Below, piece after piece: positions 301 to 23,388 of a stretch of 64,000 nucleotides of DNA (position 1 is the stretch's first letter; each line of letters starts with the position of its first letter). The notes under the pieces were generated by a model, which searched no databases, was not told the origin of the DNA, and saw nothing but the letters and a program-made list of their open reading frames with translations. Origin of the DNA: Polytrichum commune (lineage: Eukaryota; Streptophyta; Polytrichopsida; Polytrichales; Polytrichaceae); assembly GCA_950295325.1 (NCBI GenBank), contig OX485804.1, positions 26,104,001 to 26,168,000 on the forward strand. Direction: 5' to 3'. Made by a program: the position numbers and the translations under genes.

Positions 301-508
301 AATGTCAAATGAATTTGAACTAGGTTGCAAAGAACCAATAGTTGTTAGGGACTTTCTTGCAAATTGTCAAGATATTTTCTCCAAATAGTAACCAAGGATG
401 CCCCTTGAAAGGGAGGTAGATCATGATATCAAATTGATACTTGGTGTCACATAGGTAGCTTAGGCACCCTATAGGCTTCCCTTCAAGGAGAATGTTGAAT
501 TGGAAACT
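301..508 (+). pseudogene. Decayed Ty3/gypsy pol, left part (protease-RT junction)
   Basis: The plus strand reads, through several stops, as the start of a Ty3/gypsy reverse transcriptase: a region like FLANCQDIF, then a DH.I.L-type motif, then APYRL-like residues leading to VELET. These are the usual landmarks just before the first RT motifs. Stops interrupt the frame and no intact ORF remains. The fragment stops at 508 where the large element inserts, and its continuation is found at 18,863. It is the outermost and probably oldest layer of the nest. Confidence 0.6.
504..508. repeat. Target site duplication AAACT, left copy
   Basis: AAACT sits directly before the TG at 509 and is found again directly after the CA at 18,857. 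Five bases is the usual target duplication length for Ty3/gypsy elements. Removing the element plus one copy rejoins the host reverse transcriptase reading frame, which independently supports this boundary. Confidence 0.8.
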
Positions 509-1178
509 TGTAGAGACACCAGTGATCGCCACAGCAACAGAAACAATGGGATTAGGCGAGAAGGTGAGAGTGCCGGGAGCGAACGGAGTCGAAGCTCCGA
601 GCAGCGAATGGAAACGGGACTGTTACGAAACTCAGGCAGCCGGTGAGAACGGGGCCATTCTAGGGCTGGAGGCAACTAAGTGAGAATGGGGCAGTGCAGA
701 CCCCCGACCCCAGGGTAAGCCCGGGTAAAGACAGACCGGGTAGGTCCGAGTGCGGAGGAGATGAACCGGGCAGGCCCCGGATGCGGGGAGAAGACGAACC
801 GGTTAGGGCACTGGAGACAGGCTGGAGCGGGCCGGGTACTAGTAGAGGCGAACTGGCAGGTTACTAGTAAGGCAAACGAACCAGTTGGAGGCCGGGCTTA
901 GGGCCGACACACATGGCACATATAGCTAATAGGGAATTAATGTAAATAGGACCATTTTGAGAAGCGTAGAGGCACGGTCCTATTCCCGCTTTAGAGCACA
1001 TGTCAATTAAGTAGCTTAGGTGATATGAAAAGATATGTAAGTAGGAATTACATGTTAGACTAAATAGATTTAGTCTCTATGAATTAAGACTTTTAAATCA
1101 GGCTATATTTAGATACAGTGATAAATTTAGCTGAAGCTAACATTTACAAAAATCTACAAATACCTAGATGTAAGACAC

Positions 1179-1186
1179 TATATAAA
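1179..1186 (+). promoter_or_regulatory. TATA box of the 5' LTR
   Basis: TATATAAA lies mid-LTR, in a CACTATATAAAGGGG context. A similar block occurs in reverse orientation near 21331 in the related solo LTR, so it is conserved within the family. It is the likely core promoter, placing U3 at about 509-1210 and the transcript start shortly downstream. Confidence 0.6.
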
Positions 1187-1264
1187 GGGGCCAAGTTAGG
1201 TCCCCTAATACACTTCATTTCACTCCGAATATTCTACATGAGTGTCCGAGTCTAGGGCTTTAAT

Positions 1265-1376
1265 TTAGCGGCACGCGTTGGTGCAAACTAACTTAGCGGC
1301 ACGCGTTGGTGCAAATTAACTTAGCGGCACGCGTTGGTGCAAATTAATCTAGTGGCACGCATTGGTGCAAATTGAC
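1265..1376 (+). repeat. Four 28-bp tandem repeats in the LTR leader
   Basis: Four head-to-tail 28-bp units start at 1265, 1293, 1321 and 1349, each built on GGCACGCGTTGGTGCAAA. The fourth is diverged. Two shorter, looser versions follow near 1390 and 1420. The array is about 80 bp downstream of the TATA box, so it is probably transcribed in the R/U5 leader. The same array occurs in the 3' LTR. Confidence 0.85.
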
Positions 1377-2798
1377 CTATTCTACTTACGGCAAGCGTGG
1401 TGCTTCTAGTAGGGAAAAATTGATCGCACGCATGGTGCATCTCTAGTTGATATGTTAAAGAATTAGCAATTGCGGAAGCAAGCTAATTCGCGGCCGCAAG
1501 GTCTCTTACAAGCTTAGAGAATTATCACCCAAATAAATTGAAGAGGAAGTAGGCATACCGAAACCTCGAGTTAGGAAATTACCCCGAGGCCGGTTAGGGA
1601 AATTCTTCACATACATGTTCATGATCAACGTTGAGACTTCCATAATTGAGCTTTGGTCAAACTATAAATACAAAAATAAGGAGCGGAGGTAAAAAGCAAA
1701 AGGATGGCCGGGTGGCTAGCAAAGCACCCCATAAGCAAAGTATGTGATTAGAAACGAGAGGCCGTCAAAGTTCGGAGGAGACACCTAAGGTTGTAAGGAC
1801 GGTGATTACCTTTCCTCCAAAGTGCCTTCGGATTTGAGATAATCAACAAGGGGAATCCACTCGAGAGGTACATGAGGCTATCAAGTGCAAAGCGAGCAAG
1901 AAGAGACAATCTAAGGGAGGCTAAGCCTTCCCCTCGCTATCATATCCCCTATCCTACTCCTCATTAACCTAATGGTGATTCGGGTAATCAAAGGGGATTT
2001 CACTTAGGGATTTAGGCCAAGACCATGATTTGTGGAACAATCTAAGAGTAGCCAAGTCACGGTCTTGCCACCAAATTCCTTATGCCCCTATAGGGAATTT
2101 GGGAAGAGAAGAGGGATACTTTGGTAATTATATATATGCCGGCCATGACCAAGGATTGGAATGCCCTTGGGAACATAGATGAGTATTAATCAAGCACCTT
2201 TGAATGTCTATTGGATTTATATGCCCTTATGGAATGAATAGGGATTCCATGACATCAAGGGAAGTAGCTAATTAGTTAATTTGAGGTTAGTGAGAGAGTA
2301 TGCTTGAAGACATAAATGAGAATAGCTCTAGGGGAATAGGAAGATTTTAATCATCCAAACCATGAAAGATATTGTAGGTATGAACGATGTTCTCCCTAAA
2401 ACACTTAACCTTGACATTAGGGTTTCGGGGAACATAAACTGAAAGACTTGGCCACTTTATCCTTAGAGATTTATAAAGGGTTTGTGATTAGAAAAAGGAT
2501 TATGTTACTCAATCCATATAAGATGCAAGATCTAATAAAGGTTTAGGATCACCTAACCTTGACATTAGATTTCGGGGAACATAAACTCGCAATCTTAAGT
2601 CAACTACTCCTTGAAGAATAAAACGAGCACTGAAGCTATATGTTACAAAATACAAGACAGCGGAGAAAGTATAAACACCTTCACAAGTATTGGAATCTAA
2701 GATGGTCTAATTTTGGTGGGAGTAACTTCCATGTAAACCGGTTCAGCAGCGGGTTACACCGTCTAAGTTGCTGAGGGTTGAAGGTGGCCTCCACATTT

Positions 2799-2817
2799 TG
2801 GCGACCATGCTGGGGAT
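2799..2817 (+). other. Primer binding site of the Tat-like element
   Basis: TGGCGACCATGCTGGGGAT begins three bases after the LTR end. TGGCGAC...GCTGGGGA is the pattern usually seen at primer sites of Tat-branch elements and differs from the TGGTATCAGAGC initiator-Met site used by the neighbouring element. I did not assign the primer tRNA. Confidence 0.7.
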
Positions 2818-2904
2818 ACGCCACATGGACGTTACACTTGCCTAGATTAGATATAAAAATTACAACATATTGTCTTGGGAGAAAGAGCTGGATGGCAGGA
2901 AACA

Positions 2905-3519
2905 ATGGAGAATTTGTATTACTTATACAACAGGAGACGCCAACGAGAGGCGAATGAGCAACGTAAGTGGGCAGAAACATTTGGACCGCGGAAACAAGAC
3001 CGGATAGAAAGAGCTGTGCAACGGAGACTTGAACAATTCAATCTACGAGGATTCATTTTGCAAGGACGAGAAGAAGGAATCGAAGAAGAGAACTCGGAAC
3101 AACAAGGGATTTTGGACATAGGAAAATGGCCATGGGATTACCCAAAGTATGGTACAAGTAAAAGCGATTTGAGGAAATGGGACGGAACCAAGAAATTTCA
3201 CGATCTTATGTGGGATATGCAGAAGATCTACGAAGATAAGATTTGGCAACTATTTAGAGAAAAGGAGATAGGTTTTACATATCGATCACAATTTGAAAGG
3301 AATATTGACGAGTTACCTGAGGAACTGCAAGCAGTGATTTTCTCCAAGGTTTGGAACGACGGAAAGGAAGGTGTCGGCGCCTATGATCTAGGAACAACCA
3401 GACATAGAGGTTACCATTACAAGCAAGAAGGGTTGTTATACGATTTGTATGTTAAGAAGATATTCTTACCTCTATATGGTGGTTTGAACGGTAGGGTGGG
3501 AAAACAAGAGTCCGACTAG
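2905..3519 (+). CDS. ORF1 upstream of gag, 204 aa, function unknown
   Basis: This ORF lies between the primer site and gag. It starts at ATG 2905; the open frame extends upstream to 2875 but with no ATG. The protein is highly charged. An arginine/glutamate-rich N-terminal half (RRRQREANEQRKW) probably forms a helix, and aromatic residues are frequent later (for example KWPWDYPKYG). I see no zinc knuckle and no catalytic motif. Ogre elements are known to carry an ORF of unknown function in exactly this position, which is the main reason to regard it as real. It is in a different frame from gag, with 143 bp between them. Confidence 0.7.
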   Translation: MENLYYLYNRRRQREANEQRKWAETFGPRKQDRIERAVQRRLEQFNLRGFILQGREEGIEEENSEQQGILDIGKWPWDYPKYGTSKSDLRKWDGTKKFHDLMWDMQKIYEDKIWQLFREKEIGFTYRSQFERNIDELPEELQAVIFSKVWNDGKEGVGAYDLGTTRHRGYHYKQEGLLYDLYVKKIFLPLYGGLNGRVGKQESD

Positions 3520-3662
3520 AAGCAATACAAAAATAAACAAGGCAAGGAGAACTTAACTCCAAGTGAATCATCCATAGGCAAACAGGTAAAGTACGGATGC
3601 ATTGAGGCGTCAGTGCTGGAGGCCGGCCAAGACATGATCCCGAAACACTCTCAGTAGCGTAC

Positions 3663-6527
3663 ATGGTTGACCATGAGGACATATCTAGCACGAGAAGCAC
3701 ATCACCAACCCCAAGGGAACAAGAAGCAGAGCGGAGGCATGTGGAGCGCATGCACTCTAGAGAGGATTCCGTGAGACGGAACGAACAGCAGAAGAGAGAA
3801 AGAGAAGAGAGGTACGCGAGGCGTACGCGTCAAAGAACTACAGGAGAAGAAGAAACTCGAAATGTTTCTGAGCCACCGGCAGTAGGTTCCCACACCACCA
3901 AACCTATCCACCAAAGGAGTCAAAGTGAAGGAGGAGGTAACGATAAAACATACAAAGAAAAAGACACAACGGAGAACAACCCAACTCAAGAAGAAAGCGA
4001 AGACGAAGATGACTTGATAATAGGTACCCCTCTTGGGACCTATGTGTTAAGAACAAAAGGTACAGGTGAAACCACCGGGACGAATACCCCAGGGAGTGGG
4101 GTGCAGGATAAGGGTAAATACCCTCAAGGTAACACGACCAGGGAAGACCTTTTCACCCAAAGGAATTGGGAGGGATTGAAAAGGAATTTTGACGAACAAT
4201 TCAGTTACGAGGACTCCGGTTTCTCCGGAGGAAGCACACAAAACAACACGAACAAGGAAGTGAAGAGACCTATCAGTCAAGAGGAGTTTGACGAATTAAG
4301 GAGGAAGTTTGAAGAGAGACTCAGGCAATTCCAAAACCTTGGAATTAACCCCGGAGTCAGCCCACCACCAGCCAACAACAACACAGTACCAAGTTTTGGA
4401 AACAACCCATCTAACCCGGCCAACATGGCCGCTCAACCACGGAGAACTAAGGTTCCCTTACCAACCTATAAGGGTAAGACCGATCCAGATACTTACATGC
4501 AGGAGTTTAACAATGTTTGTCTTGCCAACCAGGAAGACACCGATGCGATCAAGCTACAATTATTTCCAGTTACTTTAAAGAAGCGGGCACTAGAGTGGTA
4601 TTCCCAATTTGGCCCACACCATTTTCCAGATTGGCCCTCCTTGGAAGCTGCCTTTCTGATGAGATTTAGATCCAAGAAATCGGAGGGAGAAGTGATTGAG
4701 AGTCTAGGATCCCTCAAGCAGAAGAAAGATGAAACAGTTGAAGAATTTTACGAAAGGGTTATGGTGGAATCATCGAAGATAAATCCCCAGCCCAGCAATC
4801 AATTCAAGAAGGCATGGTTTCTTAATGGCCTTAAGAAGGAGTATGCCAAACATATTGATCTCATGCCGACCAATGACTTAGACGAAGCCAAGGCCTCAGC
4901 TCGAAAATTGGAGCTAGGTCAAATGAGGAAGGGAAGATTCCTCGATGAAAGTGACAGCGACGACTCAAGTGATGATTCAGAAGAAGAGCGCAGGAAGAAG
5001 AAGAGAAAGTCAAAGGGTAAGAGAAACGACTCTACCAAAGACGACATAAAAACCCTTAGGGAAGAGATTGAAGGACTAGCTCTAGGGAGCAGGAAATTTC
5101 GAACAGGCATCATCTGCCGGAGATGCCGAAATGAAGGACACTACGTGCAGGAGTGTCAGATGAAGCAGTGCACCAACTGCAACAGCCTAACGCATAACAC
5201 AAGTGAATGTGTCTATGAACGGCACGAATCTCGGAGACCCCGAGAGAGGAGATATGGGGTAAATCAAGTGCAACCCCAAACCAATCGAAGGCCAGGAGCG
5301 ATAACTCCTAGGCGAGACATGAATGATCGAAGGGTTCGGTTTGAACCAAGGACTGAGTACAGAAGAGAAGAAAGATCCCCTTATAGGGAAGGCGATTACC
5401 GGCGGGAGGCGGGAGGCCCCTACCGGGGAAATGAATATCGCAGAGATGATCGGCCTTATTACAGGCCCAATGACAACTACAAGGATGATTTCAGAAGGGA
5501 AGGATATTCCCCTTACAAGACCCAAGATTTCCGGAGGGAAGATGGATACCCCTACCGAGGAGGCTCCAGAGGACCTATCAACCATGACAGGTATGAGTAT
5601 ACCAGAAGCCTGATGGATAGTAACAACACCAAGGCAGCGCCGAGAACTGGGTTCACTGGCGGACCACAACGAGATGGCAACCCCGACGAGTGTTTTTATT
5701 GTCATCAGAAGGGGCACCGGAAGCCGGATTGTCCGCACTTTATTAAACACCAACAGGAGTTGAGTGGATTTAGAAACACAAAGCCGGCAGTAGGAGCCAA
5801 TGTGGTGTCCCCTGCGGTTTGTGTAATGACGAGAGCCCAGCGGGCTGCAGCCGAGAAAGGCAAGGAGGATAGTGAAAGTGATGACAGTGATGACGATGAT
5901 GAAACGAGTAGTGGCAGCTCGGAGGAGCAGGAAGACCACCAAAAGAGAGAGGAGAACTCTGAAGATGAAAGGGATGACGCGTTCGAGAATAACGAACGCA
6001 ACAAAGTGATTGAAGAAAGGCCGATAGGAGCCAACAGTGAAGAGTGGAAGGCGGATAGGGAAGTCCACCGGGAGGTGAGTAAGACCATCCATGAGATACA
6101 GGAGGAAGAGGGCGAAGCTCTACCCACGCCAGAGGAGTTCGCGCCTTGGTACCCAGAAAAGGAAGAGGCAGAGAAGCCCACGGAACGGAGCCCCGAGGAA
6201 GGAGGCGTCCCAACAGCTACCCAGGCAAGGGTAGATAAGATCTTGGAGAGCGTGATGAATCACACGAAAGCAAACATATCAATCGGACAGTTACTGGAGA
6301 TAGCCCCTTATTGCAAGAAGCGGATAATGGCGGCGTTAACACATGAGGAGAAGTCGAAAGAACCGACTCAAACCTATCAAGTTACGACAAAGGCATTTGA
6401 TGAAGAAATGCCCATGATATCCGTAATTGTGAAGAATAGGCAAGTACCAAACGCCTTGATCGATGGTGGTTCAGGAGTGAACATCATCACGGACACGTTA
6501 AGAAGGAATTGGGACTCAAGAAGATAG
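3663..6527 (+). CDS. Gag with N-terminal part of protease, 954 aa
   Basis: Gag forms the virus-like particle and binds RNA. The start ATG is at 3663. Residues about 1-230 are charged and low in complexity. Residues about 265-420 carry the retrotransposon gag core, with motifs such as ALEWYSQF and FYERV. Three CCHC zinc knuckles follow: CRRCRNEGHYVQEC, CTNCNSLTHNTSEC and CFYCHQKGHRKPDC, all CX2CX4HX4C. Between the second and third lies an arginine/tyrosine-rich stretch of repeated YRRE/PYR units, probably RNA-binding. An acidic linker leads to a retropepsin start with ALIDGGSGVNII, the catalytic aspartate motif. The frame closes inside the protease at 6525, and the rest continues in the -1 frame from about 6500. 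This could be a one-base deletion or a recoding site; I favour deletion because the break falls within a folded domain. Confidence 0.85.
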   Translation: MVDHEDISSTRSTSPTPREQEAERRHVERMHSREDSVRRNEQQKREREERYARRTRQRTTGEEETRNVSEPPAVGSHTTKPIHQRSQSEGGGNDKTYKEKDTTENNPTQEESEDEDDLIIGTPLGTYVLRTKGTGETTGTNTPGSGVQDKGKYPQGNTTREDLFTQRNWEGLKRNFDEQFSYEDSGFSGGSTQNNTNKEVKRPISQEEFDELRRKFEERLRQFQNLGINPGVSPPPANNNTVPSFGNNPSNPANMAAQPRRTKVPLPTYKGKTDPDTYMQEFNNVCLANQEDTDAIKLQLFPVTLKKRALEWYSQFGPHHFPDWPSLEAAFLMRFRSKKSEGEVIESLGSLKQKKDETVEEFYERVMVESSKINPQPSNQFKKAWFLNGLKKEYAKHIDLMPTNDLDEAKASARKLELGQMRKGRFLDESDSDDSSDDSEEERRKKKRKSKGKRNDSTKDDIKTLREEIEGLALGSRKFRTGIICRRCRNEGHYVQECQMKQCTNCNSLTHNTSECVYERHESRRPRERRYGVNQVQPQTNRRPGAITPRRDMNDRRVRFEPRTEYRREERSPYREGDYRREAGGPYRGNEYRRDDRPYYRPNDNYKDDFRREGYSPYKTQDFRREDGYPYRGGSRGPINHDRYEYTRSLMDSNNTKAAPRTGFTGGPQRDGNPDECFYCHQKGHRKPDCPHFIKHQQELSGFRNTKPAVGANVVSPAVCVMTRAQRAAAEKGKEDSESDDSDDDDETSSGSSEEQEDHQKREENSEDERDDAFENNERNKVIEERPIGANSEEWKADREVHREVSKTIHEIQEEEGEALPTPEEFAPWYPEKEEAEKPTERSPEEGGVPTATQARVDKILESVMNHTKANISIGQLLEIAPYCKKRIMAALTHEEKSKEPTQTYQVTTKAFDEEMPMISVIVKNRQVPNALIDGGSGVNIITDTLRRNWDSRR

Positions 6528-9500
6528 AGCCCGCACCATTCACCATAAAAATGGCAGACCAAAGGAAGGTCATGCCCAAAGGAATTATCCGGGACGTACG
6601 CCTTGATGTTGGCGGGATTGTGATCCGGACGACACTCACCGTTATAGACATGGTGAGTACTGAAGACAGTTACTCCCTATTATTGGGAAGACCATGGTTG
6701 AAGGAGGCTCAAGCCCAACATGACTGGCCCCTCAACAAACTAACCTTGACCCAAGGAGGGAACAAGGTGGAAGTAAGCACCCGGAGAACGCCAGCGCTAT
6801 CCCCTGCAAAGAGACCCTTGCATTGGGAAGATTACGACTGGGAGATGGGACTATCGGATGAAGAAGAAGCCATAGTCTATGAGGCCTTCCCTGAACTACT
6901 CCCCATGGGAGATTTCGACTTAAAAAGCTTGAGGAAGTTAAAAGGACCAAGTTGCAATACAATGGAGATTTCTACCATCGGAACACCTACCTCACAAGGA
7001 GGTAAATCCGAGAAACCCCGGTCGAGGAAAGCGACCAAGAAAGAACAAGAAGCTATGGAGGAGAAACCTGTATATCCCTCCCAGTTTTACAAGGCAAAAG
7101 AAGGAGACATAATAGTGGACCGTACCCCTGCCTCAAAAGCTGTCAAAGGGAAGAAGATAGCCGGATGGACGGTTGAAGATGAAGACTTGGTCAAAAACTT
7201 GAACTTAGGTACTCCGGAGGATCCTAAGTTAGTCAAGATAGCCAAGGATTTGGGTGACTACGAAGCACAAGTAAAAGAACTCTTATTGAGATTTAAGGAC
7301 GTGTTCGCCTTTACGTACAAAGATATGAAGGGAATACCTCCGTACATATGCGAACACAGGATCGAGTTACAGCCTGAGGCCAAGCCTGTAAGGCAAATGC
7401 GCTATAGGATGAATCCCAATTATGCCGCCAAGGTCAAGGAAGAAATTGACAAATACCTGGAGGCAGGATTCATATACCCCGTTGACAAAACGGAATGGTT
7501 ATCACCGATTGTGATTGTGCCCAAAAAGAATGGGAAACTACGAGTGTGCGTCGACTACCGCAAACTCAACGCAGTCACCAAGGTAGATCCTTTTCCTCTA
7601 CCTTTTACAGAATCGATTTTGGAAGCGGTTGCAGGACACGAAATGTACACGTTGATGGACGGGTACATCGGCTACAACCAAATTATGATCGCGCTGGAAG
7701 ACCAGCTGAAAACTTCTTTCATCACCGAGTATGGAGCGTTCGCATACCGAGTGATGCCCTTTGGACTGATGTGCGCACCAACCACCTTCCAAAGGGGTAT
7801 GATGAAGATCTTTGCCGATTACCTCGACAAATTTATGAAGGTCTTTCTGGATGACTTTACCGTATATGGCACCAAGGAAGACCATATTGAGCACTTGGAG
7901 AAATGTCTCATTAAGTGCCGCGAGAATGGAGTGAGTTTGAACCCGGAGAAATGTTATTTTTGTGTGAACTCCGGGAGGCTCCTTGGGCATGTAGTGTGTA
8001 AGGAGGGATTGCTAGTGGACCCTAAGAAGGTGGGAGTCATAAAAGAATTACCCCCACCAACCACAGTACGGGGAATCCAAAGTTTCTTGGGACAAGCCAC
8101 CTACCATCGCAAGTTTATATGGATGTATGCGGATATCACACGACCCTTGTACTTATTGCTCAAGAAAGGAGAAAAATACATTTGGACCAAGTCTTGTCAG
8201 GAGGCCTTTGAGGAAGTAAAGAAAAGGCTCACGACCACACCCATTCTCATAATCCCTAATTGGACAATGGACTTCCACGTACACTGTGACGCGTCCAACA
8301 TAGCTATTGGAGCCGTTTTGGCCCAAAACATACATGGAGATAGAGATTCTCCAATTCATTATGCAAGCCGACTTTTAAACAATGCTGAGAAGAACTACAG
8401 TACAACGGAGCGCGAAGCTCTAGCAATGATTTATTCGGTGGGCAAATTTCGGCATTACTTACTAGCCAACCATTTTGTCTTCTACGTGGACCATCAAGCG
8501 TTGATATACTTGGTCAATAGACCAGTAGTATCCGGGCGTATTGCGAGATGGATGCTTTTGCTTCAAGAATATGACTTTGAAGTGATCTACAAACCCGGTA
8601 GAAGCCATGTCATGGCTGACCATTTATCCAGAATTGAAAGTGGGGAGGAACCCTCAGGGGTGCAAGATCAATTCCCGGATGCGAGTTTATTCATGGTACA
8701 TGTGCAACCTTTCGAAGATTGGCGAGCACCATTTATCGAGTACCTTACACACGGAAAACTATTATCCGCACTCGCTACCCCGGAAGAACAGACAAAAATT
8801 AGACAGCTGAGTGAACCATTCGTTCTGGACGATGAAAAGCTCATGCGGGTCAGTATCTCCGGCAAAATACATGAATGCATAGCCGGGGACATCATCGAAG
8901 AAATTATAAGTGAAGCTCATAAACAAGACGGAGTGCATTACAATTTGTCTACTACATGGCAATATGTATTACGCACACCTTATTGGTGGCCTACACGGCG
9001 AAGAGACGTACTGGAATACTGTGATGAATGCCTAGTATGTAAAATGTCAGACCAAGGTGACTTAACTGGGGAACCCACCCCACATGACTCCGAGGACGAC
9101 GATGACCCACTGCCTATCAAACCTTTGGAGGCACAAGAGGACATGAATGGGAAAGCGGAACCAGATTGGACAACTCCCTATGTCCAATATCTAACCTGTC
9201 AAACGTACGGGACCCCATGGGTAAGTTCCCTACCCCTGGAAGAAAGGAAATTGCTTGCTTACCGCAGTCGATTCTTCATACTCAAGGAAGGGGAATTACA
9301 TCGCATGTTTCACAACGGCATCATAAAGAAATGTATACCTGGAAGGTATGTGAGGAGTTACATCAAGATCCTCCATATAAAGGAAAATCGGCATTTCTCG
9401 ATAAACGCCACCAGGCAACTGGTGTTGCAGGGCCCTTATTGGTGGCCAACCCTAACGGAGGATGTTTCACTACTCATCACGCTATGCACTGAATGCAAAG

Positions 9501-10006
9501 GACAGGGAGAAGAGTTACCAACACAAGGAAGCTCTTCACAACCTAATCATGAGACAGAGATAATACCCTACAAAGAAACCTTCAATGATTGGAGAACACC
9601 CCTGGTTGAGTACATGACACGGGGAAAGTTCAAGATGGACATGGAGACTCAAAGAAAGCAACAAGAGCTCATACGAGAAAGTGAGGTTTTCACATTGGAG
9701 AAAGGAAAACTCCAAAAATTAGAGAAGAACGGAATGGCGAAGATATGCATTGCGGATTACCAAATCAAGCATTACATAGGAAAAATGCATGTCTATCGAA
9801 AAGCGCACCTAAACGATCAACACACCTGGCTACGATGTTTACAAGGGAACCGGTGGTGGCCCACGATGGGGCTAAGTGATATACAATACTACATTGAGTA
9901 TGATTGTCGAGTCTGCCGAGAGCGATTTATAGGCCCATACCATAACATAATCTGCGGTTCCATTGCCGCACAACCGCAAGACAACAAAGATTGGAGAGGT
10001 TATTGA
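6509..10006 (+). CDS. Pol part 1: protease C-terminus, RT, RNase H, HHCC modules 1-3
   Basis: Reads 1165 codons in the -1 frame relative to gag, from the protease C-terminal half (LLLGRPWL) onward. RT motifs are clear: LRVCVDYRKLNAVT, MPFGLMCAPTTFQ and the catalytic VFLDDFTVYG, which has FLDD instead of the usual Y-x-DD. RNase H follows, with HVHCDASNIAIGAVLAQ, TEREALAMIYSVGKFRHYL and the DHQAL motif. At 8717 the first of eight integrase-type zinc modules begins (DWR...YL..GK, then H-H, PYWWPT and C-x2-C); modules 2 and 3 start at 9164 and 9587. The frame ends at 10004 right after the DWR of module 4 and resumes in the -1 frame, most simply a one-base deletion. Confidence 0.9.
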   Translation: MGLKKIEPAPFTIKMADQRKVMPKGIIRDVRLDVGGIVIRTTLTVIDMVSTEDSYSLLLGRPWLKEAQAQHDWPLNKLTLTQGGNKVEVSTRRTPALSPAKRPLHWEDYDWEMGLSDEEEAIVYEAFPELLPMGDFDLKSLRKLKGPSCNTMEISTIGTPTSQGGKSEKPRSRKATKKEQEAMEEKPVYPSQFYKAKEGDIIVDRTPASKAVKGKKIAGWTVEDEDLVKNLNLGTPEDPKLVKIAKDLGDYEAQVKELLLRFKDVFAFTYKDMKGIPPYICEHRIELQPEAKPVRQMRYRMNPNYAAKVKEEIDKYLEAGFIYPVDKTEWLSPIVIVPKKNGKLRVCVDYRKLNAVTKVDPFPLPFTESILEAVAGHEMYTLMDGYIGYNQIMIALEDQLKTSFITEYGAFAYRVMPFGLMCAPTTFQRGMMKIFADYLDKFMKVFLDDFTVYGTKEDHIEHLEKCLIKCRENGVSLNPEKCYFCVNSGRLLGHVVCKEGLLVDPKKVGVIKELPPPTTVRGIQSFLGQATYHRKFIWMYADITRPLYLLLKKGEKYIWTKSCQEAFEEVKKRLTTTPILIIPNWTMDFHVHCDASNIAIGAVLAQNIHGDRDSPIHYASRLLNNAEKNYSTTEREALAMIYSVGKFRHYLLANHFVFYVDHQALIYLVNRPVVSGRIARWMLLLQEYDFEVIYKPGRSHVMADHLSRIESGEEPSGVQDQFPDASLFMVHVQPFEDWRAPFIEYLTHGKLLSALATPEEQTKIRQLSEPFVLDDEKLMRVSISGKIHECIAGDIIEEIISEAHKQDGVHYNLSTTWQYVLRTPYWWPTRRRDVLEYCDECLVCKMSDQGDLTGEPTPHDSEDDDDPLPIKPLEAQEDMNGKAEPDWTTPYVQYLTCQTYGTPWVSSLPLEERKLLAYRSRFFILKEGELHRMFHNGIIKKCIPGRYVRSYIKILHIKENRHFSINATRQLVLQGPYWWPTLTEDVSLLITLCTECKGQGEELPTQGSSSQPNHETEIIPYKETFNDWRTPLVEYMTRGKFKMDMETQRKQQELIRESEVFTLEKGKLQKLEKNGMAKICIADYQIKHYIGKMHVYRKAHLNDQHTWLRCLQGNRWWPTMGLSDIQYYIEYDCRVCRERFIGPYHNIICGSIAAQPQDNKDWRGY

Positions 10007-11895
10007 TAGAATACCTCACTTACGGGTACCTTAAGGGGCCCCACATCTCGAAAGGACAGCAGAAGAAGATTGCCCACCAGAGCCGGGAATACTTCATCGA
10101 AGAAGGCAAATTGAAAAGGATACTATCAAATGGTGAAACCAAGATATGTATTGCCGGACATGAGGTAAACAAATACCTACAAGAGTTACACGTCACAGAC
10201 ACAGGAGAACATCTTAGCCAGGAGACCACATGGCACCTATCCATGTTCGGGCCATATTGGTGGCCCACGTGCGGGTCCGACATCAAGAACTTATGCAACG
10301 GGAAGTGCCCAGTGTGCAGCAACCAGGTCGGGCTTGCAGCAGGAAAAGAAACACAGACACTTCTAGGTGAGAAGAGCCTAGATTGGAGACGTCCTTATTT
10401 GGAGTACCTGACATGCGGAAAAATCTTCAACCAAGCCTTACCACCAGGTGTAAGGAAAGCGGTGGAGCAAAGCCATAAGCATTTTGTGTTCACCAACGGT
10501 ACTTTGCAAAGGATACGTCAAAGAGGAAAGAATAACCAAATGTGTATACCAGAGACTCAAGTACCCGCGTACTTAGCTAAGATTCATGGACAAAGCATGC
10601 CCCATTTGGCAGCCATAGAAACCTGGAAGGCCGTAGCCACCGGGGCGTATTGGTGGCCAACGTGGGGACATGACGTATGCAACTACCTAAAGCACTGTGA
10701 TAGTTGTAGAGGAACAGAAAGCAAGACAAAACACCCCGAGGAAAGTCAAAGCGCGGCGCTCCTAGAAACAATATCCGAGCCGGATTGGAGGCACTCAGTC
10801 ATACAACGACTGGAAAGCTTTGAAGATTGGAACCTTATTGACACCCATGAAAATGTGGGATTACTTGACCCCAACGCTGAAATGTATTTCATAACCAAGG
10901 ATGGTTTGAAGTATCAATTACCCGATGGTGAAGTGAAAATGTGTATCACAAAAGGGGACGCCGTCGATTGGGTAAAGAGGGTACACGAATATCAAGTACC
11001 ACACTTGACTGCGGAAGAAACAACCGCTCAAGTACACGAAGGCCCGTATTGGTGGCCAACTATCTCTCTAGACGTGAAACGTTTAGTTGACGAATGCCGG
11101 ATATGTCAGCTCGGGACAACGTTAAGCTTCCGAGCTGCGAAGTATGGAACCATCCCATTCAGAAAAGATAAAGCACAGGATTGGCGAGAACCAATCATAC
11201 AACACCTCAAGCAACCGATGGAATTAAGCGAATTGGCATTCCAAGAGGAATTTGGGATATTGAAAGAGGAAATACCTGATTATTTCCTGGAAGAAGATAT
11301 ATTGAGCCAAAGGTTAAATGGAGACATCAAATTGTGTATATCCCAAGATGAGGGAATCAAATGGCTAACAACTATTCATCAACAGAGATCCCCACATCTC
11401 TCAATGGATGAGATGATCTCGCGGGTCACTTCAGGACCTTACTGGTGGCTTACAATACCGCCGGACATCGATCATCTCTGTAAGAACTGTATGCATTGTC
11501 AGCCTCGAGAATCCCCAAAACATGTGATCGATTGCAGAACAGTCACAAGTAAGGACAGGGAGGAACCTGATTGGAGAGCTCCTTTTATTGATTATTTGAA
11601 GCATGGTTGATTGACCACGGAGGCGTCGACCACCCAACGACAACAAATAGCAATACGTAGTCGGCCGTATATGTTGACTCCTAATGGGACCCTAATCAAA
11701 GAAGGCCCTGATGGTATACGGCGGACATGTGTAGCCGGACCGATAACCACGGCCATCATTGCGGAGGCCCACGAAGGAATTGCCGGAGGGCATTTCTCAG
11801 CCAAGATTACTCTTCACAAAATTTTGACTGCCTTATATTGGTGGCCTTCCATGAAGAAAGATGTATATTTTTATTGTGTTCAGTGTGATATCTGT
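8717..11895 (+). repeat. Eight tandem integrase HHCC zinc-binding modules
   Basis: Eight protein-level repeats run at 8717-9040, 9164-9496, 9587-9916, 9989-10317, 10381-10707, 10783-11106, 11179-11499 and 11569-11895. Each is about 107-111 aa with linkers of variable length. Each starts with DWR followed by a YL..GK-like helix, passes a short G-L-x-R strand and a CI or CV, then H-x(5-8)-H, a PYWWPT-like block and C-x2-C. All eight keep both histidines and both cysteines. DNA similarity between modules is low, so the expansion is old and the ligands seem to have been conserved. Only the last module directly precedes the integrase core. Ordinary Ty3/gypsy integrases have one such domain. Confidence 0.9.
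9991..11610 (+). CDS. Pol part 2: HHCC modules 4-7 and start of 8
   Basis: This open frame is the continuation of pol after a one-base shift near 9995. The apparent start has no biological meaning. It holds modules 4 to 7 with ligand pairs such as CPVC, CDSC, CRIC and CMHC and their upstream H...H pairs. It ends at a TGA (11608-11610) inside module 8, just after DWRAPFIDYLKHG. The next codons continue in the same frame, so this is a nonsense change; a CGA to TGA transition would explain it. No catalytic domain is in this part. Confidence 0.85.
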   Translation: MERLLIEYLTYGYLKGPHISKGQQKKIAHQSREYFIEEGKLKRILSNGETKICIAGHEVNKYLQELHVTDTGEHLSQETTWHLSMFGPYWWPTCGSDIKNLCNGKCPVCSNQVGLAAGKETQTLLGEKSLDWRRPYLEYLTCGKIFNQALPPGVRKAVEQSHKHFVFTNGTLQRIRQRGKNNQMCIPETQVPAYLAKIHGQSMPHLAAIETWKAVATGAYWWPTWGHDVCNYLKHCDSCRGTESKTKHPEESQSAALLETISEPDWRHSVIQRLESFEDWNLIDTHENVGLLDPNAEMYFITKDGLKYQLPDGEVKMCITKGDAVDWVKRVHEYQVPHLTAEETTAQVHEGPYWWPTISLDVKRLVDECRICQLGTTLSFRAAKYGTIPFRKDKAQDWREPIIQHLKQPMELSELAFQEEFGILKEEIPDYFLEEDILSQRLNGDIKLCISQDEGIKWLTTIHQQRSPHLSMDEMISRVTSGPYWWLTIPPDIDHLCKNCMHCQPRESPKHVIDCRTVTSKDREEPDWRAPFIDYLKHG

Positions 11896-13434
11896 CAAAG
11901 GATTGGTCCCAAAATTTCAACCAATCTCCAACCCTTACATCCTACGATGCCCACCGAGGTATTCCAAAAATGGGGTTTGGATTTCATTGGACCAGTCAAC
12001 CCGCCAGCTAAAGGTACCAAGAATCGGTACATCATTACAGCTACTGACTATACCACCAAGTGGGTGGAGGCCAGAGCTCTAAAAGACAACACGGCTAAGT
12101 CAACAGCCAAGTTTCTTTTTGAAGAAATAATTACCAAATTTGGTTGCCCATTGGAATTTGTAAGTGACCAAGGGAGCCACTTCATCAACGACACCATTAA
12201 GGTTCTCACACAAGAATTTATGATCCTACATCGGAAATCAACAACCTACTACCCCCAAGCTAATGGACAAGCAGAAAGTACCAACAAAGTTATAAAAATT
12301 GCCTTGACCAAAATGGTTAACGCCAATCGTACGGATTGGGACACCAAACTACATGCAGCGCTATGGGCATATAGAACAGCCTATAAGGTCACGACAAAGC
12401 ACACCCCGTTTTCTTTGGTTTTTGGGACAGAAGCCCTACTACCTATGGCTTACCTTCACCCCGATATTCACCAAAAACGGAGTCAAGCTATCCACCCTAT
12501 TTTGGAGAGAAGGATGGAACAACTCAGAACCATGGACTTAACCCGACATGAAGCAGAGGAGAATATGAGGCACATGCAATTACTGCGCAAAGAAAGACAT
12601 GACCACCCTCGAAAAAGGACACCCTGTAGCCAGTGTCACCACGAAGCAATTAAAACATCCCAAAAGAAAGCCAAAAAGTGTGATACTTTGAAAGGTGAAA
12701 ACGCACAAGCTACGAAGAAGGTTAAGCACTCTCCAAGGAGTGAGGACTCCGAGCTACCAACTACTCAAAAAGTAAGATTTTACCCCGGTCAAAGAGTTTT
12801 ATGGCACCTACGCCATAAAATACCCGGGCCAGGCAAGTTCAAAATACGATGGGCAGGACCATACCTTATTGAGCAAGTTTACGACAACGGGTCAGTCGAC
12901 GTCACCACACTACAAAAGGAAAGTTTGGGGCGAGTCAACATGAACAAACTCAAGCCTTATCAAGAGCCGGAATCTACTCAAGCCTACGCCCTACAAATTT
13001 TGGCATGCCATATTCTTGAGGCGGAGATTCGAGCGGAACGAAACCAGTTACATAAAAGGAATAATACGACCCAACCCCAAGACACCCCATTCTCTCACCA
13101 AAATGGAGAAACCATCTTACCCACTGAACCTACCCCCTACCCAGATAGGGAAACCTTAGAGGCAGAAGACCTAGAAATACATCAAGTTATGCTAGAGGGA
13201 TATTTTGTACACCCTTCAGTACCGGAGAATGGCGGATGGCAACTCCAAAATCATGAAGGACCAAACTCACCAAGTGGAAGTAATTTTTCTCTAGAAAGTC
13301 AAACAAATTGCGAACCATTAGAAAAATCGAAACCCCTGTCGGAGGGAAGCATTGAGGTACAAACTTTTCAAGAGAAGGTGAACCCCACCCCACCAAGGCC
13401 GAAAGGGGGCAGGGTGAAGCAACCCCCTAAGTAA
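11611..13434 (+). CDS. Pol part 3: integrase (zinc module 8, DDE core, GPY/F-like C-terminus)
   Basis: Integrase inserts the cDNA into the genome. The frame is the same as the preceding one, separated only by the TGA. It opens with the rest of module 8: EAHEGIAGGH, LYWWPS and CDIC supply the HHCC ligands. The catalytic core follows with WGLDFIGPV, VSDQGSHF and NGQAESTNK, which supply D, D and E. FGTEALLP and a C-terminal GPGKFKIRWAGPYLIEQV block mark the GPY/F-type module. No chromodomain is seen. About 150 hydrophilic, proline-rich residues follow to the stop at 13432. The upstream TGA means the protein cannot be made as part of pol without readthrough. Confidence 0.9.
   Translation: MTTEASTTQRQQIAIRSRPYMLTPNGTLIKEGPDGIRRTCVAGPITTAIIAEAHEGIAGGHFSAKITLHKILTALYWWPSMKKDVYFYCVQCDICQRIGPKISTNLQPLHPTMPTEVFQKWGLDFIGPVNPPAKGTKNRYIITATDYTTKWVEARALKDNTAKSTAKFLFEEIITKFGCPLEFVSDQGSHFINDTIKVLTQEFMILHRKSTTYYPQANGQAESTNKVIKIALTKMVNANRTDWDTKLHAALWAYRTAYKVTTKHTPFSLVFGTEALLPMAYLHPDIHQKRSQAIHPILERRMEQLRTMDLTRHEAEENMRHMQLLRKERHDHPRKRTPCSQCHHEAIKTSQKKAKKCDTLKGENAQATKKVKHSPRSEDSELPTTQKVRFYPGQRVLWHLRHKIPGPGKFKIRWAGPYLIEQVYDNGSVDVTTLQKESLGRVNMNKLKPYQEPESTQAYALQILACHILEAEIRAERNQLHKRNNTTQPQDTPFSHQNGETILPTEPTPYPDRETLEAEDLEIHQVMLEGYFVHPSVPENGGWQLQNHEGPNSPSGSNFSLESQTNCEPLEKSKPLSEGSIEVQTFQEKVNPTPPRPKGGRVKQPPK
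13401..13419 (+). other. Purine-rich tract, possible internal polypurine tract
   Basis: GAAAGGGGGCAGGGTGAAG lies at the very end of the integrase ORF. It resembles the polypurine tracts that prime plus-strand DNA synthesis in gypsy elements. It is about 3.2 kb upstream of the 3' LTR, where no comparable tract is present. Confidence 0.4.
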
Positions 13435-15192
13435 AACATTTAAAGGAAACGGCCTAGGCAAAAGCTCGCCTAGGGCGGACCACTGGCGTAGTAAACCAGT
13501 AAGAGTTCCCTATCAATCTTGTTAGAGAGGGACAGTATTAGGATAGTGATCACCAAGTCCTTAGCAGAAAATGGATAGGAGGCCATAAGTTAGAGAGGGA
13601 TGATTTACCAAGAATTACCAAGCCACCTACTTAGATGAGTATGGAGAGATAAAGGAATTGTATAGGTCACTTTGTGTAGATGATATTTAGGATATGGACA
13701 ATATGACCATACGAAGTATATACACTTAGGGAGTGGAAGTAGCAAACATAGTATGGAGATAAGTCCTAGAGAGGGGGATTATCCTTTGTGCTTAGGAAAA
13801 TTTTAAAGTGGACCAATTCAACAGGACCGAGGTAGGAGATACATCAAGTGATACCAAAGGCCATATATGAGTGGGGGAAACGAAGCCTTTAGGAGATGTT
13901 AGGATGAAATTTTCATACGACGAGAGAGTTTTTTTTAGGATATATGAACAGTTATTGCAGCTCTATCAAATATGGTGACCAGATGAAGCCGTAGGAGCTG
14001 CACCAGAAGAGAACTTTATCAGGTGCGATAAAGGGAGGACGTTCTGAACAATTCCACAGATGGATGAAGTTATGTCTACAGACAACTTTTCGTTCTGATG
14101 GATTGAGGCAGCTGTATGAGACGTGGCCGCATACCCAGTTGTGTAAAGTCTATCGAGAGCAGCGACTGGATGTAGTTAACCTTTCAGGACACGCACGAGC
14201 CAAATCGAGTTTATCAAATACAACTATTGGATGAAGTTTTTCGTATGCCGCCAATGGATGGAATTTTCAAGAGTGTGACGACTAGATGACTTTGGGCGTG
14301 CGACTGATGAATGAAGTTTAAAAGGATGCAGCAGCTTAGTAAAGTATTTTTGACTACCAACATAATAGAGCCATGTCCAGGGATGGATGCATAAAGCCTT
14401 CACCAAAAAAATAATAAAATAATAATAATAATAATAATAAAATTCAGGACCGCATCAAGGAGCGTTCTGGAAGCGGATAAGGGATCCTCATTTGTTAGTC
14501 GAGATATTGCAAAAGTTACCGTATGACAGCTCCATGGTGAATACCAGATGGAACACATAGTAAAAGGGGAAGAATAAAAATCAAAATAAAAATCAAAATT
14601 GACACCCATTCAGAGCTGTTTACTGCAACCGAATATCTGAAATCTATTATCAATCACCAAAAGGAGCAGAATTTATGACTTCTAACAAACCACAAGAAAG
14701 ATTCAACTGAATGGACAAGAATTGAACTGAGAATGCCAGAATCAGGTTTAACTTTATTTAAATGAAGAGACAAGTACAAAAGAGAACTCCAATTTGTTTT
14801 TATTGGAGGGGTCCAACAAGTGGACCCCAAGAAAATTGGGGATTCAACCCACCGAAGTGGGGAATCCCACGAAGGTAACTTGTAAACCTGTGTCAACCCA
14901 CTTTCACACAGTCAGTAAAGCGAAGGGAAAATAACTTCAAGACAAAAATGAAAGAGTAAAGGGAATACCTAATATTCAAACTGCGGACCCCACCACCTGG
15001 CCTCCCCTCTCCAACCGCCACAGACAAGAACTCCAACCACTTCGAGTCAGCTGAAGTGCTCTCCAGAGACGAAGAGAAACGTCCCAGCGGATCCCATAAT
15101 TTTGCATCAAGCACTCGGCAGTTGCAGCATCCAACTGAGGGAAGTTAGCACGAGAATCAGTTGAAGGTTAGGAGGTTTCAGCACAACAAACC
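13435..15192. other. Non-coding spacer between integrase and the 3' ORF
   Basis: No convincing ORF is present on either strand. A short inverted motif (GCCTAGGC...GCCTAGGG) lies near 13451-13475 and an AAT microsatellite at about 14407-14442. Such an untranslated spacer between integrase and an extra ORF is seen in other large Tat and Athila elements. A promoter or splice site for the downstream ORF could lie here, but I cannot identify one. Confidence 0.5.
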
Positions 15193-16587
15193 ATGGAATG
15201 CCCACATCAATATCATCCCAAGTTGGACGAGAATGGGAAGTTTTGGAAAGGAGTGCAGACTGCCTGCCTTCACGCATTTTCTCAAATACACTGGAACCCG
15301 GGTAAGTCACAGTGGCACTTCCCAGCTTGCAAGTTTCACTCTTTCCAAGCAGTTCTTCACAGAGCCATATCAGAGTGGGAGAGGAACCCTGAATTCATTG
15401 AAAGTATGAAGAGGGGATTGGAAGCAGAGCACACGGAATTGTATGTGTTCAGCACTAATGCTGATATCAACTATAAGCTTACTCTAGAAGAGACAAAGTT
15501 TTTAAAGGCACTTCACCTTGAAGACTTCATCACATCAGTTTCATGGGGGGTGCTGCATCCACAACTGGTCAAGGAGGCAATTGCCTCTTTTGAACCCACC
15601 ACTTTACTAGCCACTGTGAAAGGAGAACGCACCACCATTGTCGCCAAGAACTGGCGAAAACAGTTTCAACAGGTGTTTCACTTACAAATGAAAGGGAAGC
15701 GTCCTGTCACAAAGGAATGGACATTGGCCGAACTTTTTCCGTCCTTAAAAGAGAATGCAGAGACGGTACGCATCTCCGATTGCAAATACCCTGGGTCGAA
15801 GAGGCCACTACGCCTCTTAAGCTCCCTATTATGTCTCAATTCCACACAACAACCCCACATAACTATTTCATTTGCTGAACATGTGCTGGCCGCACTTAAC
15901 GGGGAGGCCGTAGATTGGCCACAAGAATTCTACCATGAAATAACAGAAGAAATGGCGGCCTTACACGCTAAGCATCGTGCACCCCGAGTCAAGGTAGGAA
16001 AGACCTCGATTGGCCCACATGTAACCCTCATCCTGAAGGCAGCAGGAACCTTCGACATCCGCGAAGAATTCGAAGCAGGTTACAGGACTCCGAGAGGCCT
16101 CACAATTACAGAGCAGGTTCCTCCTCCAAAGAGGACCAAAGCCAAGGCAGTCAAAAATGTGGGGTCGCAACCCAAAATCAGGGTGCCCACATCCCCCGTC
16201 CTCGGAGCTGCAGCACAACATGCGAGCGCAGAAACATCTACTATACCAGTCTATACTGCCACGCCACAGGCGGCTGAAGAAACAGCGAAGGGATCACCAA
16301 GCAAGGGAGTGTTTTCAGAAACCACCGAATTTAAGCAACCTCCAAAGGTCTTACCTCCCATGGTGGAGCAGATTTGTCAAGCGCATCGCCGACTTGAGAA
16401 TTTATTGGTCTCCTTCACCAGCAAGGCTCCAGCAAAATTCGTCAATCAAATGAACGACGAGTTTTTCAAAATTCAACGAGAGGCAACATTGGATCAGCAT
16501 CAGAAGCAACCATGTGACAATCAATTACAAGTGTTCCTGCAAGCTCAGGAAGCTCAATTAAAACATTTGGCTACCAGACACCAGTGA
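15193..16587 (+). CDS. Extra sense-strand ORF before the 3' LTR, 464 aa
   Basis: This intact ORF starts at ATG 15193 and ends at TGA 16585-16587, a few bases inside the 3' LTR. The first about 120 residues are cysteine/histidine/aromatic-rich (FPACKFHSF). Residues 90-270 look like a globular domain with a pattern ...HPQLVKEAIASF...TVKGERTTI...VFHL... that recalls the plant transposon protein / plant mobile domain proteins found in many plant retroelements; this is inference from pattern only. The C-terminal part is proline/alanine-rich and ends in a probable coiled coil (LQVFLQAQEAQLKHLA). There is no signal peptide or transmembrane segment, so it does not look like an envelope protein. It is the only long ORF of the element with no break. 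Confidence 0.75.
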   Translation: MECPHQYHPKLDENGKFWKGVQTACLHAFSQIHWNPGKSQWHFPACKFHSFQAVLHRAISEWERNPEFIESMKRGLEAEHTELYVFSTNADINYKLTLEETKFLKALHLEDFITSVSWGVLHPQLVKEAIASFEPTTLLATVKGERTTIVAKNWRKQFQQVFHLQMKGKRPVTKEWTLAELFPSLKENAETVRISDCKYPGSKRPLRLLSSLLCLNSTQQPHITISFAEHVLAALNGEAVDWPQEFYHEITEEMAALHAKHRAPRVKVGKTSIGPHVTLILKAAGTFDIREEFEAGYRTPRGLTITEQVPPPKRTKAKAVKNVGSQPKIRVPTSPVLGAAAQHASAETSTIPVYTATPQAAEETAKGSPSKGVFSETTEFKQPPKVLPPMVEQICQAHRRLENLLVSFTSKAPAKFVNQMNDEFFKIQREATLDQHQKQPCDNQLQVFLQAQEAQLKHLATRHQ

Positions 16588-17240
16588 TCGCCACAGCAAC
16601 AGAAACAATGGGATTAGGCGAGAAGGTGAGAGTGCCGGGAGCGAACGGAGTCGAAGCTCCGAGCAGCGAATGGAAACGGGACTGTTACGAAACTCAGGCA
16701 GCCGGTGAGAACGGGGCCATTCTAGGGCTGGAGGCAACTAAGTGAGAATGGGGCAGTGCAGACCCCCGACCCCAGGGTAAGCCCGGGTAAAGACAGACCG
16801 GGTAGGTCCGAGTGCGGAGGAGATGAACCGGGCAGGCCCCGGATGCGGGGAGAAGACGAACCGGTTAGGGCACTGGAGACAGGCTGGAGCGGGCCGGGTA
16901 CTAGTAGAGGCGAACTGGCAGGTTACTAGTAAGGCAAACGAACCAGTTGGAGGCCGGGCTTAGGGCCGACACACATGGCACATATAGCTAATAGGGAATT
17001 AATGTAAATAGGACCATTTTGAGAAGCGTAGAGGCACGGTCCTATTCCCGCTTTAGAGCACATGTCAATTAAGTAGCTTAGGTGATATGAAAAGATATGT
17101 AAGTAGGAATTACATGTTAGACTAAATAGATTTAGTCTCTATGAATTAAGACTTTTAAATCAGGCTATATTTAGATACAGTGATAAATTTAGCTGAAGCT
17201 AACATTTACAAAAATCTACAAATACCTAGATGTAAGACAC

Positions 17241-17248
17241 TATATAAA
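17241..17248 (+). promoter_or_regulatory. TATA box of the 3' LTR
   Basis: TATATAAA, identical in context to the 5' LTR box. In this copy it could drive readthrough transcription into the flanking remnant and the next element. Confidence 0.55.
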
Positions 17249-17326
17249 GGGGCCAAGTTAGGTCCCCTAATACACTTCATTTCACTCCGAATATTCTACA
17301 TGAGTGTCCGAGTCTAGGGCTTTAAT

Positions 17327-17438
17327 TTAGCGGCACGCGTTGGTGCAAACTAACTTAGCGGCACGCGTTGGTGCAAATTAACTTAGCGGCACGCGTTGGT
17401 GCAAATTAATCTAGTGGCACGCATTGGTGCAAATTGAC
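17327..17438 (+). repeat. Four 28-bp tandem repeats in the 3' LTR
   Basis: Same array as in the 5' LTR, with the same three near-identical units and one diverged unit. Confidence 0.85.
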
Positions 17439-18857
17439 CTATTCTACTTACGGCAAGCGTGGTGCTTCTAGTAGGGAAAAATTGATCGCACGCATGGTGC
17501 ATCTCTAGTTGATATGTTAAAGAATTAGCAATTGCGGAAGCAAGCTAATTCGCGGCCGCAAGGTCTCTTACAAGCTTAGAGAATTATCACCCAAATAAAT
17601 TGAAGAGGAAGTAGGCATACCGAAACCTCGAGTTAGGAAATTACCCCGAGGCCGGTTAGGGAAATTCTTCACATACATGTTCATGATCAACGTTGAGACT
17701 TCCATAATTGAGCTTTGGTCAAACTATAAATACAAAAATAAGGAGCGGAGGTAAAAAGCAAAAGGATGGCCGGGTGGCTAGCAAAGCACCCCATAAGCAA
17801 AGTATGTGATTAGAAACGAGAGGCCGTCAAAGTTCGGAGGAGACACCTAAGGTTGTAAGGACGGTGATTACCTTTCCTCCAAAGTGCCTTCGGATTTGAG
17901 ATAATCAACAAGGGGAATCCACTCGAGAGGTACATGAGGCTATCAAGTGCAAAGCGAGCAAGAAGAGACAATCTAAGGGAGGCTAAGCCTTCCCCTCGCT
18001 ATCATATCCCCTATCCTACTCCTCATTAACCTAATGGTGATTCGGGTAATCAAAGGGGATTTCACTTAGGGATTTAGGCCAAGACCATGATTTGTGGAAC
18101 AATCTAAGAGTAGCCAAGTCACGGTCTTGCCACCAAATTCCTTATGCCCCTATAGGGAATTTGGGAAGAGAAGAGGGATACTTTGGTAATTATATATATG
18201 CCGGCCATGACCAAGGATTGGAATGCCCTTGGGAACATAGATGAGTATTAATCAAGCACCTTTGAATGTCTATTGGATTTATATGCCCTTATGGAATGAA
18301 TAGGGATTCCATGACATCAAGGGAAGTAGCTAATTAGTTAATTTGAGGTTAGTGAGAGAGTATGCTTGAAGACATAAATGAGAATAGCTCTAGGGGAATA
18401 GGAAGATTTTAATCATCCAAACCATGAAAGATATTGTAGGTATGAACGATGTTCTCCCTAAAACACTTAACCTTGACATTAGGGTTTCGGGGAACATAAA
18501 CTGAAAGACTTGGCCACTTTATCCTTAGAGATTTATAAAGGGTTTGTGATTAGAAAAAGGATTATGTTACTCAATCCATATAAGATGCAAGATCTAATAA
18601 AGGTTTAGGATCACCTAACCTTGACATTAGATTTCGGGGAACATAAACTCGCAATCTTAAGTCAACTACTCCTTGAAGAATAAAACGAGCACTGAAGCTA
18701 TATGTTACAAAATACAAGACAGCGGAGAAAGTATAAACACCTTCACAAGTATTGGAATCTAAGATGGTCTAATTTTGGTGGGAGTAACTTCCATGTAAAC
18801 CGGTTCAGCAGCGGGTTACACCGTCTAAGTTGCTGAGGGTTGAAGGTGGCCTCCACA

Positions 18858-18862
18858 AAACT
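18858..18862. repeat. Target site duplication AAACT, right copy
   Basis: AAACT directly follows the terminal CA of the 3' LTR and matches 504-508. Confidence 0.8.
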
Positions 18863-23338: not shown

Positions 23339-23388
23339 GCAGTGGGCTAGTATCAGGACCTGTTCAAATTTCAGAGGGTGTTTTTTAT

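Follow-up and report, generated by a model that had tools for sequence, protein, structure and literature searches.

The DNA stretch analyzed here, referred to as the window, comprises 64,000 nucleotides of Polytrichum commune (Polytrichopsida; assembly GCA_950295325.1, contig OX485804.1, positions 26,104,001 to 26,168,000 of the forward strand). From about position 509 to 18857 it is filled by a Ty3/gypsy-type long terminal repeat (LTR) retrotransposon of ~18.3 kb, in which Pfam searches return Retrotrans_gag, RVT_1, RT_RNaseH, H2C2 and rve, the order of Ty3/gypsy elements. A single N-terminal zinc module is the norm for integrases. The element in the window presents eight, arranged between RNase H and the integrase catalytic core (rve), as proposed in an original prediction made from the sequence alone and now borne out by alignment, Pfam matches and recurrence in relatives. 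The identity of the family, a Ty3/gypsy type with an ordered array of five, eight or eleven modules, each made up of an extension domain (NED) and an HHCC N-terminal domain (NTD), is close to certain.

The eight modules of the window copy (M1-M8; Table 1) share 17-33% pairwise identity and measure 127-149 amino acids (aa) with their linkers, longer than the repeat of about 108 aa first estimated. Each presents a DW[RT] motif, a WW[PL][TS] block and the H-H-C-C ligands, with the DW[RT] of M4 preceding a frame change; the PYWWPT-like block expected in every module is represented throughout by a WW block, although M7 reads WWLT. The claim that all 32 zinc ligands are present is upheld by the alignment (32/32). 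Searches with the Integrase_H2C2 profile (PF17921), which had been suggested as a check, placed M1, M2, M4, M8 and M5+M6 (scanned as one piece, two stretches) above the cut-off, but M7 fell just under it (23.8 vs 25.5 bits, E 5e-5) and M3, scanned alone, had no match; over its length, M3 is 23-32% identical to the other window modules. A chance or low-complexity repeat is ruled out, because other copies and independent records show the modules in the same order.

To the M8 and core region, the window's own genome (407.8 Mb, about 406 Mb of it in seven contigs) returned at least 121 matches: 34 near-full and six partial at 89% identity or more, at least 30 at 70-80% (15 of full length), one further at 64%, and the remainder at 44-49%; some partial matches at 70-80% may belong to the close class in decayed form. 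We hand-picked 20 copies of the close class, counted their modules by profile and sought RNase H upstream. Eleven carry eight modules, five carry eleven (L040, L041, L053, L055 and L056) and four could not be scored, L039 being cut and L042, L043 and L057 having no upstream RNase H (L043 shows M4-M8 only). Eight, the number given for the window element in the original prediction, is therefore that of 11 of the 16 scored copies, with five and eleven also occurring in the genome. The eleven-module form consists of A1-A2-A3 followed by M1-M8, A1-A3 being a second M1-M3 block that is 51-68% identical to that of the window and at or near saturation against M1-M3 at synonymous sites; L046 and L050 have A-type modules in their first three positions. 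The sister family, sampled from the 70-80% class, has five modules in all four copies fetched (L059-L062). Its first module is nearest M1, its fourth groups with M6 and M7 and its fifth with M8, the second and third being unplaced. Stretches matching H2C2 at E <= 1 numbered nine in the eleven-module piece of L053 and four in the five-module piece of L060. The three-module block is shown for the step between eight and eleven alone, and a rule of three-module steps (2, 5, 8, 11) is not claimed. The 44-49% class, with frames often near 2000 aa, has one module in the single copy fetched (L063), and a two-module query aligned to this class as two adjoining pieces with one module skipped. One module each was likewise present in 3.1-kb pieces of the eight top zinc-domain loci from other gypsy families.

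Protein searches identified 17 relatives, 15 of them with two or more modules. Their module stretches match the window module of the expected array position in 60 of 61 cases, the lone exception being a 24-aa end piece of P0012, where the M8 reference was shortened. P0001 holds M1-M7 in one open frame and P0003 holds M3-M8 and the core in another, while P0006 and P0016 pass from M7 directly to the C-terminal tail, without M8 and rve, and may represent a deletion lineage, simple deletions or a splice product. Relatives of M8 and the core were surveyed in 120 of 317 matches, to which the following figures refer. Those bearing organism names are plants, including ferns, liverworts and conifers. 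Reverse transcriptase (RT) or RNase H lies ahead in 29, and a hand count gives a single module in 28 of these and two in the remaining one (P0043). Twelve proteins have two modules ahead of the core, the first being partial or weak in five, and three of the two-module proteins (P0072, P0073 and P0099) come from the fern Adiantum nelumboides. A scan of viral contigs found no relative.

The integrase-core tree places the 5/8/11 family in one clade (100/97) and gathers the two-module elements in a second (100/100). An approximately unbiased test did not reject a single origin of both (p 0.40 for cores, 0.098 for modules), so that an independent origin of the two-module state is favored by the best trees but not proven. 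In the module tree, proposed earlier as a guide to the order of duplication and here inferred from a short alignment with a quick method, each of the positions M1-M7 has a clade to itself, A1-A3 are nested in M1-M3, and the M8 sequences lie at the base beside the last module of the five-module family, not split off as a single branch. A recent tandem duplication of M1-M8 is ruled out, the positions forming separate groups common to the copies in this tree.

The structure model of M1, with a predicted local distance difference test (pLDDT) score of 94, matches the integrases of foamy virus and Ty3 over the full module. The repeated unit is a complete integrase N-terminal half (NED and HHCC NTD), and the original description of a zinc-binding domain, correct as to the HHCC ligands, captured only part of it. 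A junction motif (D-x(0-2)-[FL]-P-[DN]-[AT]-x-L-[FW]) occurs once per locus, ahead of M1, in the window, in 16/20 own-genome loci with eight or eleven modules, in 3/4 five-module loci and in the one single-module locus (1/1), where it likewise lies between RNase H and integrase; the four of 20 that lack it are the four without RNase H. Because the motif occurs once, before M1, as in the single-module element, the array would be the front of the integrase and not the tail of RNase H. M8 is the window module nearest to the single module of ordinary elements in 24/24 proteins, hand-picked from the 28 single-module proteins that have RT or RNase H upstream. In the four copies for which net charge was computed, modules range from -20 to +9, with M1, M6 and M7 acidic and M3-M5 and M8 neutral to basic.

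Selection on the array was assessed through the ratio of nonsynonymous to synonymous divergence (dN/dS, Nei-Gojobori, pairs with dS 0.05-1.0 only, 5-69 pairs per part). Medians are 0.034 for RNase H, 0.10-0.14 for A1-A3, 0.11-0.21 for M1-M7, 0.083 for M8 and 0.015 for the core. L039, L040, L042, L043, L048 and L058 are absent from this set, as are, for rve, L045 and L044, the latter having a frame change after M8; the rve median becomes 0.0148 with L045 restored and 0.0156 with L042 too. The highest module-pair value inside the dS range is 0.42, which a few near-identical pairs outside that range exceed (0.79 for M6 between the window and L041, dS 0.037). Synonymous sites between subfamilies are often saturated. 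The array is thus old and under purifying selection. The original prediction had associated a private degenerate expansion with full-length members having one module only or with dN/dS near 1 across the array. One-module copies are 0/16 among own-genome members with a readable stretch from RNase H to M8, and the extra modules have medians of 0.10-0.21; the family-wide array, the retained ligands and the low dN/dS together rule out such an expansion.

Zinc ligands are complete in 173/179 modules of the window and own-genome copies and in 47/53 of P0001-P0019, counts from which module fragments shorter than 100 aa are excluded (a single one in each of L039, L040, L048 and L058, many in truncated protein records). 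The six own-genome exceptions comprise one truncated module, one with a stop, one Cys->Tyr change and M6 of L054, L055 and L056; P0004 shows a partial loss (two ligands) in M6. In the five-module family, the third module has lost both cysteines in 4/4 copies and one histidine in 3/4. These losses in M6 and in the five-module family's third module indicate that zinc sites are kept generally but not universally, so that the proposed retention of ligands through selection, consistent with the low dN/dS, does not extend to these modules. M6 of L054, L055, L056 and P0018 retains its WW block and its neighbors and constitutes a natural module without a zinc site. Between the window and L053, core dS is 0.025 yet M7 is saturated, and this patchy divergence along pol, which the window also shows against L052 and other copies, suggests mosaic recombination between copies or subfamilies, a likely route for the gain or loss of module blocks.

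Taken together, these data describe a Ty3/gypsy retrotransposon with a new architecture. It resembles members of the group (Metaviridae, non-chromoviral plant type) in its LTRs, 5-bp target duplication and order of gag, RT, RNase H and integrase, but ordinary elements have one NED-NTD module, a usual rather than defining number, where eight (or five, or eleven) are found here. The window element is ~18 kb long, and the open frame in the array family reaches 3716 aa, whereas frames of the genome's next family measure about 2000 aa. The modules share their fold, HHCC ligands and position before the catalytic core with the integrases of prototype foamy virus (PFV) and Ty3, which have a single copy; the last module of the array alone is their direct counterpart. 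The two-module elements (P0028, P0029, P0043, P0072, P0073, P0099 and others) likewise have an extra NED-NTD module before the ordinary one, but only one extra copy, and fall in a separate clade of the core tree. Plant Tat elements also carry an extra polyprotein domain, in Ogre/Retand also described between RNase H and integrase (PMC6317226); theirs is a second RNase H (aRH), whereas the domains inserted here are copies of the integrase's own N-terminal half. The extra domains of plant gypsy elements described by Neumann et al. 2019 (PMC6317226) are aRH, chromodomains and extra open reading frames (ORFs), and its main text nowhere uses the terms zinc or HHCC. The window element has no chromodomain match (11611-13431 gives H2C2 and rve alone in Pfam at E <= 1) and no aRH match at E <= 1 in the pieces scanned between 6440 and 13431. 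In line with the original statement that no such element was known, literature searches by title and abstract opening, with preprints and most subscription papers outside their reach, found no published description of an integrase N-terminal array.

That 5-11 modules have been maintained by purifying selection, in an unchanging order, suggests that the module can be useful in multiple copies, and retention of the array points to an undescribed job for the zinc-binding front part of integrase. The best explanation as a whole, in which our confidence falls just short of even, is that the array is the integrase's multivalent recognition arm. The mechanism we tentatively propose, with the doubt still on the heavier side, begins with duplication of the ancestor of the last module, the array staying part of integrase and forming a long, flexible arm at its N terminus. 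M8 would perform the ordinary NED-NTD task in the intasome, gripping the element's DNA ends and a partner subunit, and M1-M7 would use the same scaffold, diverged, to make several simultaneous weak contacts with DNA ends, neighboring integrase molecules or a host chromatin factor, which would raise local concentration or steer target choice. Because module charges differ, distinct partners are suggested, and not one uniform DNA-binding string. The NED of Ty3 is described as stabilizing LTR contact, with TFIIIC binding reported (PMC8632968). A rather unlikely extension of this arm is an evolvable one, in which modules of a single scaffold but with varied surfaces, reshuffled and altered in number by recombination, would read target chromatin or host factors and set the site or company of integration.

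Several observations weigh against a recognition arm. M1 is the sole module modeled well, a three-module AlphaFold2 model having reached a pLDDT of 40.6. Module charge is mixed, and not all four copies computed are compatible with a simple DNA-binding array. The number of modules varies, and M6 retains none of its four ligands in L054 and L055 and a single one in L056 and P0018, so that neither the exact number nor every zinc site can be essential. Finally, the extra modules are ~3-6x less constrained than RNase H and 7-14x less than the core, which also fits a loosely needed part.

Outer integrase subunits have a role in intasomes, and the array might be a built-in scaffold in which extra modules replace the NED-NTD of non-catalytic subunits, thereby reducing the number of separate molecules required for assembly. 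Its scaffold and ligands are conserved, and the predicted fold is that of the PFV and Ty3 module that bridges subunits and holds DNA ends; nevertheless, modules that vary in number (5, 8, 11) and whose similarity is low and specific to position (17-33%) do not point to a fixed symmetric assembly, and we regard such a scaffold as unlikely. A constructive neutral ratchet, by which template-switching duplications yield a long spacer that is kept because misfolded modules would harm the polyprotein, would account for the doubling of a three-module block in some copies, for constraint weaker than on the core and for patchy synonymous divergence, which suggests frequent recombination. The same recombination should drop modules easily, yet no scored copy has been reduced to one, and ligands and order are retained at saturated synonymous divergence, making a ratchet improbable in our judgment. 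Among the three functions first suggested for the array, a mere spacer is the least favored, because fold and ligands are kept. Alternatively, the protease might cut the array off, and the product would then serve as a packaging protein or nucleic-acid chaperone in its own right. P0006 and P0016, which keep M7 of the array without a catalytic core, would agree with such a product but may be plain deletions; moreover, the junction motif lies only before M1, with none between M7 and M8, and the modules are of mixed charge, several being strongly acidic. We consider cleavage of this kind very unlikely. The natural variants (1, 2, 5, 8 and 11 modules, some with zinc sites lost) can serve to test the role of the NED-NTD in intasome assembly and target choice.

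Table 1. Features of the array-bearing element in the window; each module is given from its DWR or DWT start.
Feature	Positions	Strand	Basis or remark
Target-site duplication AAACT, left copy	504..508	.	Read from sequence; same five bases after 3' LTR
5' LTR (TG...CA)	509..2795	+	514-2795 100% identical to 3' LTR
Primer-binding-site-like stretch TTTGGCGACCATGCTGGGGA, directly after 5' LTR	2797..2816	+	Read from sequence
gag open stretch	3606..6527	+	Pfam Retrotrans_gag; CCHC knuckle under Pfam cut-off
pol open stretch 1 (RT, RNase H, modules 1-3)	6440..10006	+	ORF list, Pfam
RNase H	8183..8572	+	PF17919/PF17917
Conserved motif DQFPDASLF at RNase H/integrase junction	8666..8692	+	Only ahead of module 1
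Module 1 (NED+HHCC) with acidic linker	8717..9163	+	Pfam, alignment, structure model
Module 2	9164..9586	+	Pfam, alignment
Module 3	9587..9988	+	No Pfam match alone; homologous by alignment
Module 4	9989..10380	+	Pfam, alignment; frame change near start in window copy
Module 5	10381..10782	+	Pfam, alignment
Module 6	10783..11178	+	Pfam, alignment
Module 7	11179..11568	+	Pfam, alignment
Module 8, counterpart of ordinary elements' single module	11569..11949	+	Pfam; TGA 11608-11610 in window copy
Integrase catalytic core (rve)	11953..12255	+	Pfam
Extra 3' open stretch, 471 aa	15172..16587	+	No Pfam family; one weak match, E 0.1
3' LTR (identical part)	16576..18857	+	Compared with 514-2795
Target-site duplication AAACT, right copy	18858..18862	.	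Read from sequence

The LTRs of the window copy are 100% identical over 2282 bp and are flanked on both sides by AAACT. This copy is not read in one continuous frame: a frame change near 9989-10006 (modules 3/4) and the TGA in M8 leave M1-M3, M4-M7 and most of M8 with rve as three separate open stretches. With identical LTRs but at least two breaks in its pol frame, the copy, which looks young, may have been mobilized in trans or broken very recently. No polypurine tract was evident by eye immediately before 16576, and the 5' LTR bases 509-513 differ from those preceding the 3' LTR start at this position. The 471-aa open stretch lies between pol and the 3' LTR and extends into the latter. Within the LTRs, a 28-bp unit is repeated in tandem about four times (1261-1380 and its counterpart in the 3' LTR). 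Rfam and tRNA scans of the window found nothing. Downstream of the element, gag- and RT-like open stretches recognized by eye at 22338-24693 form an apparent remnant of another gypsy element.

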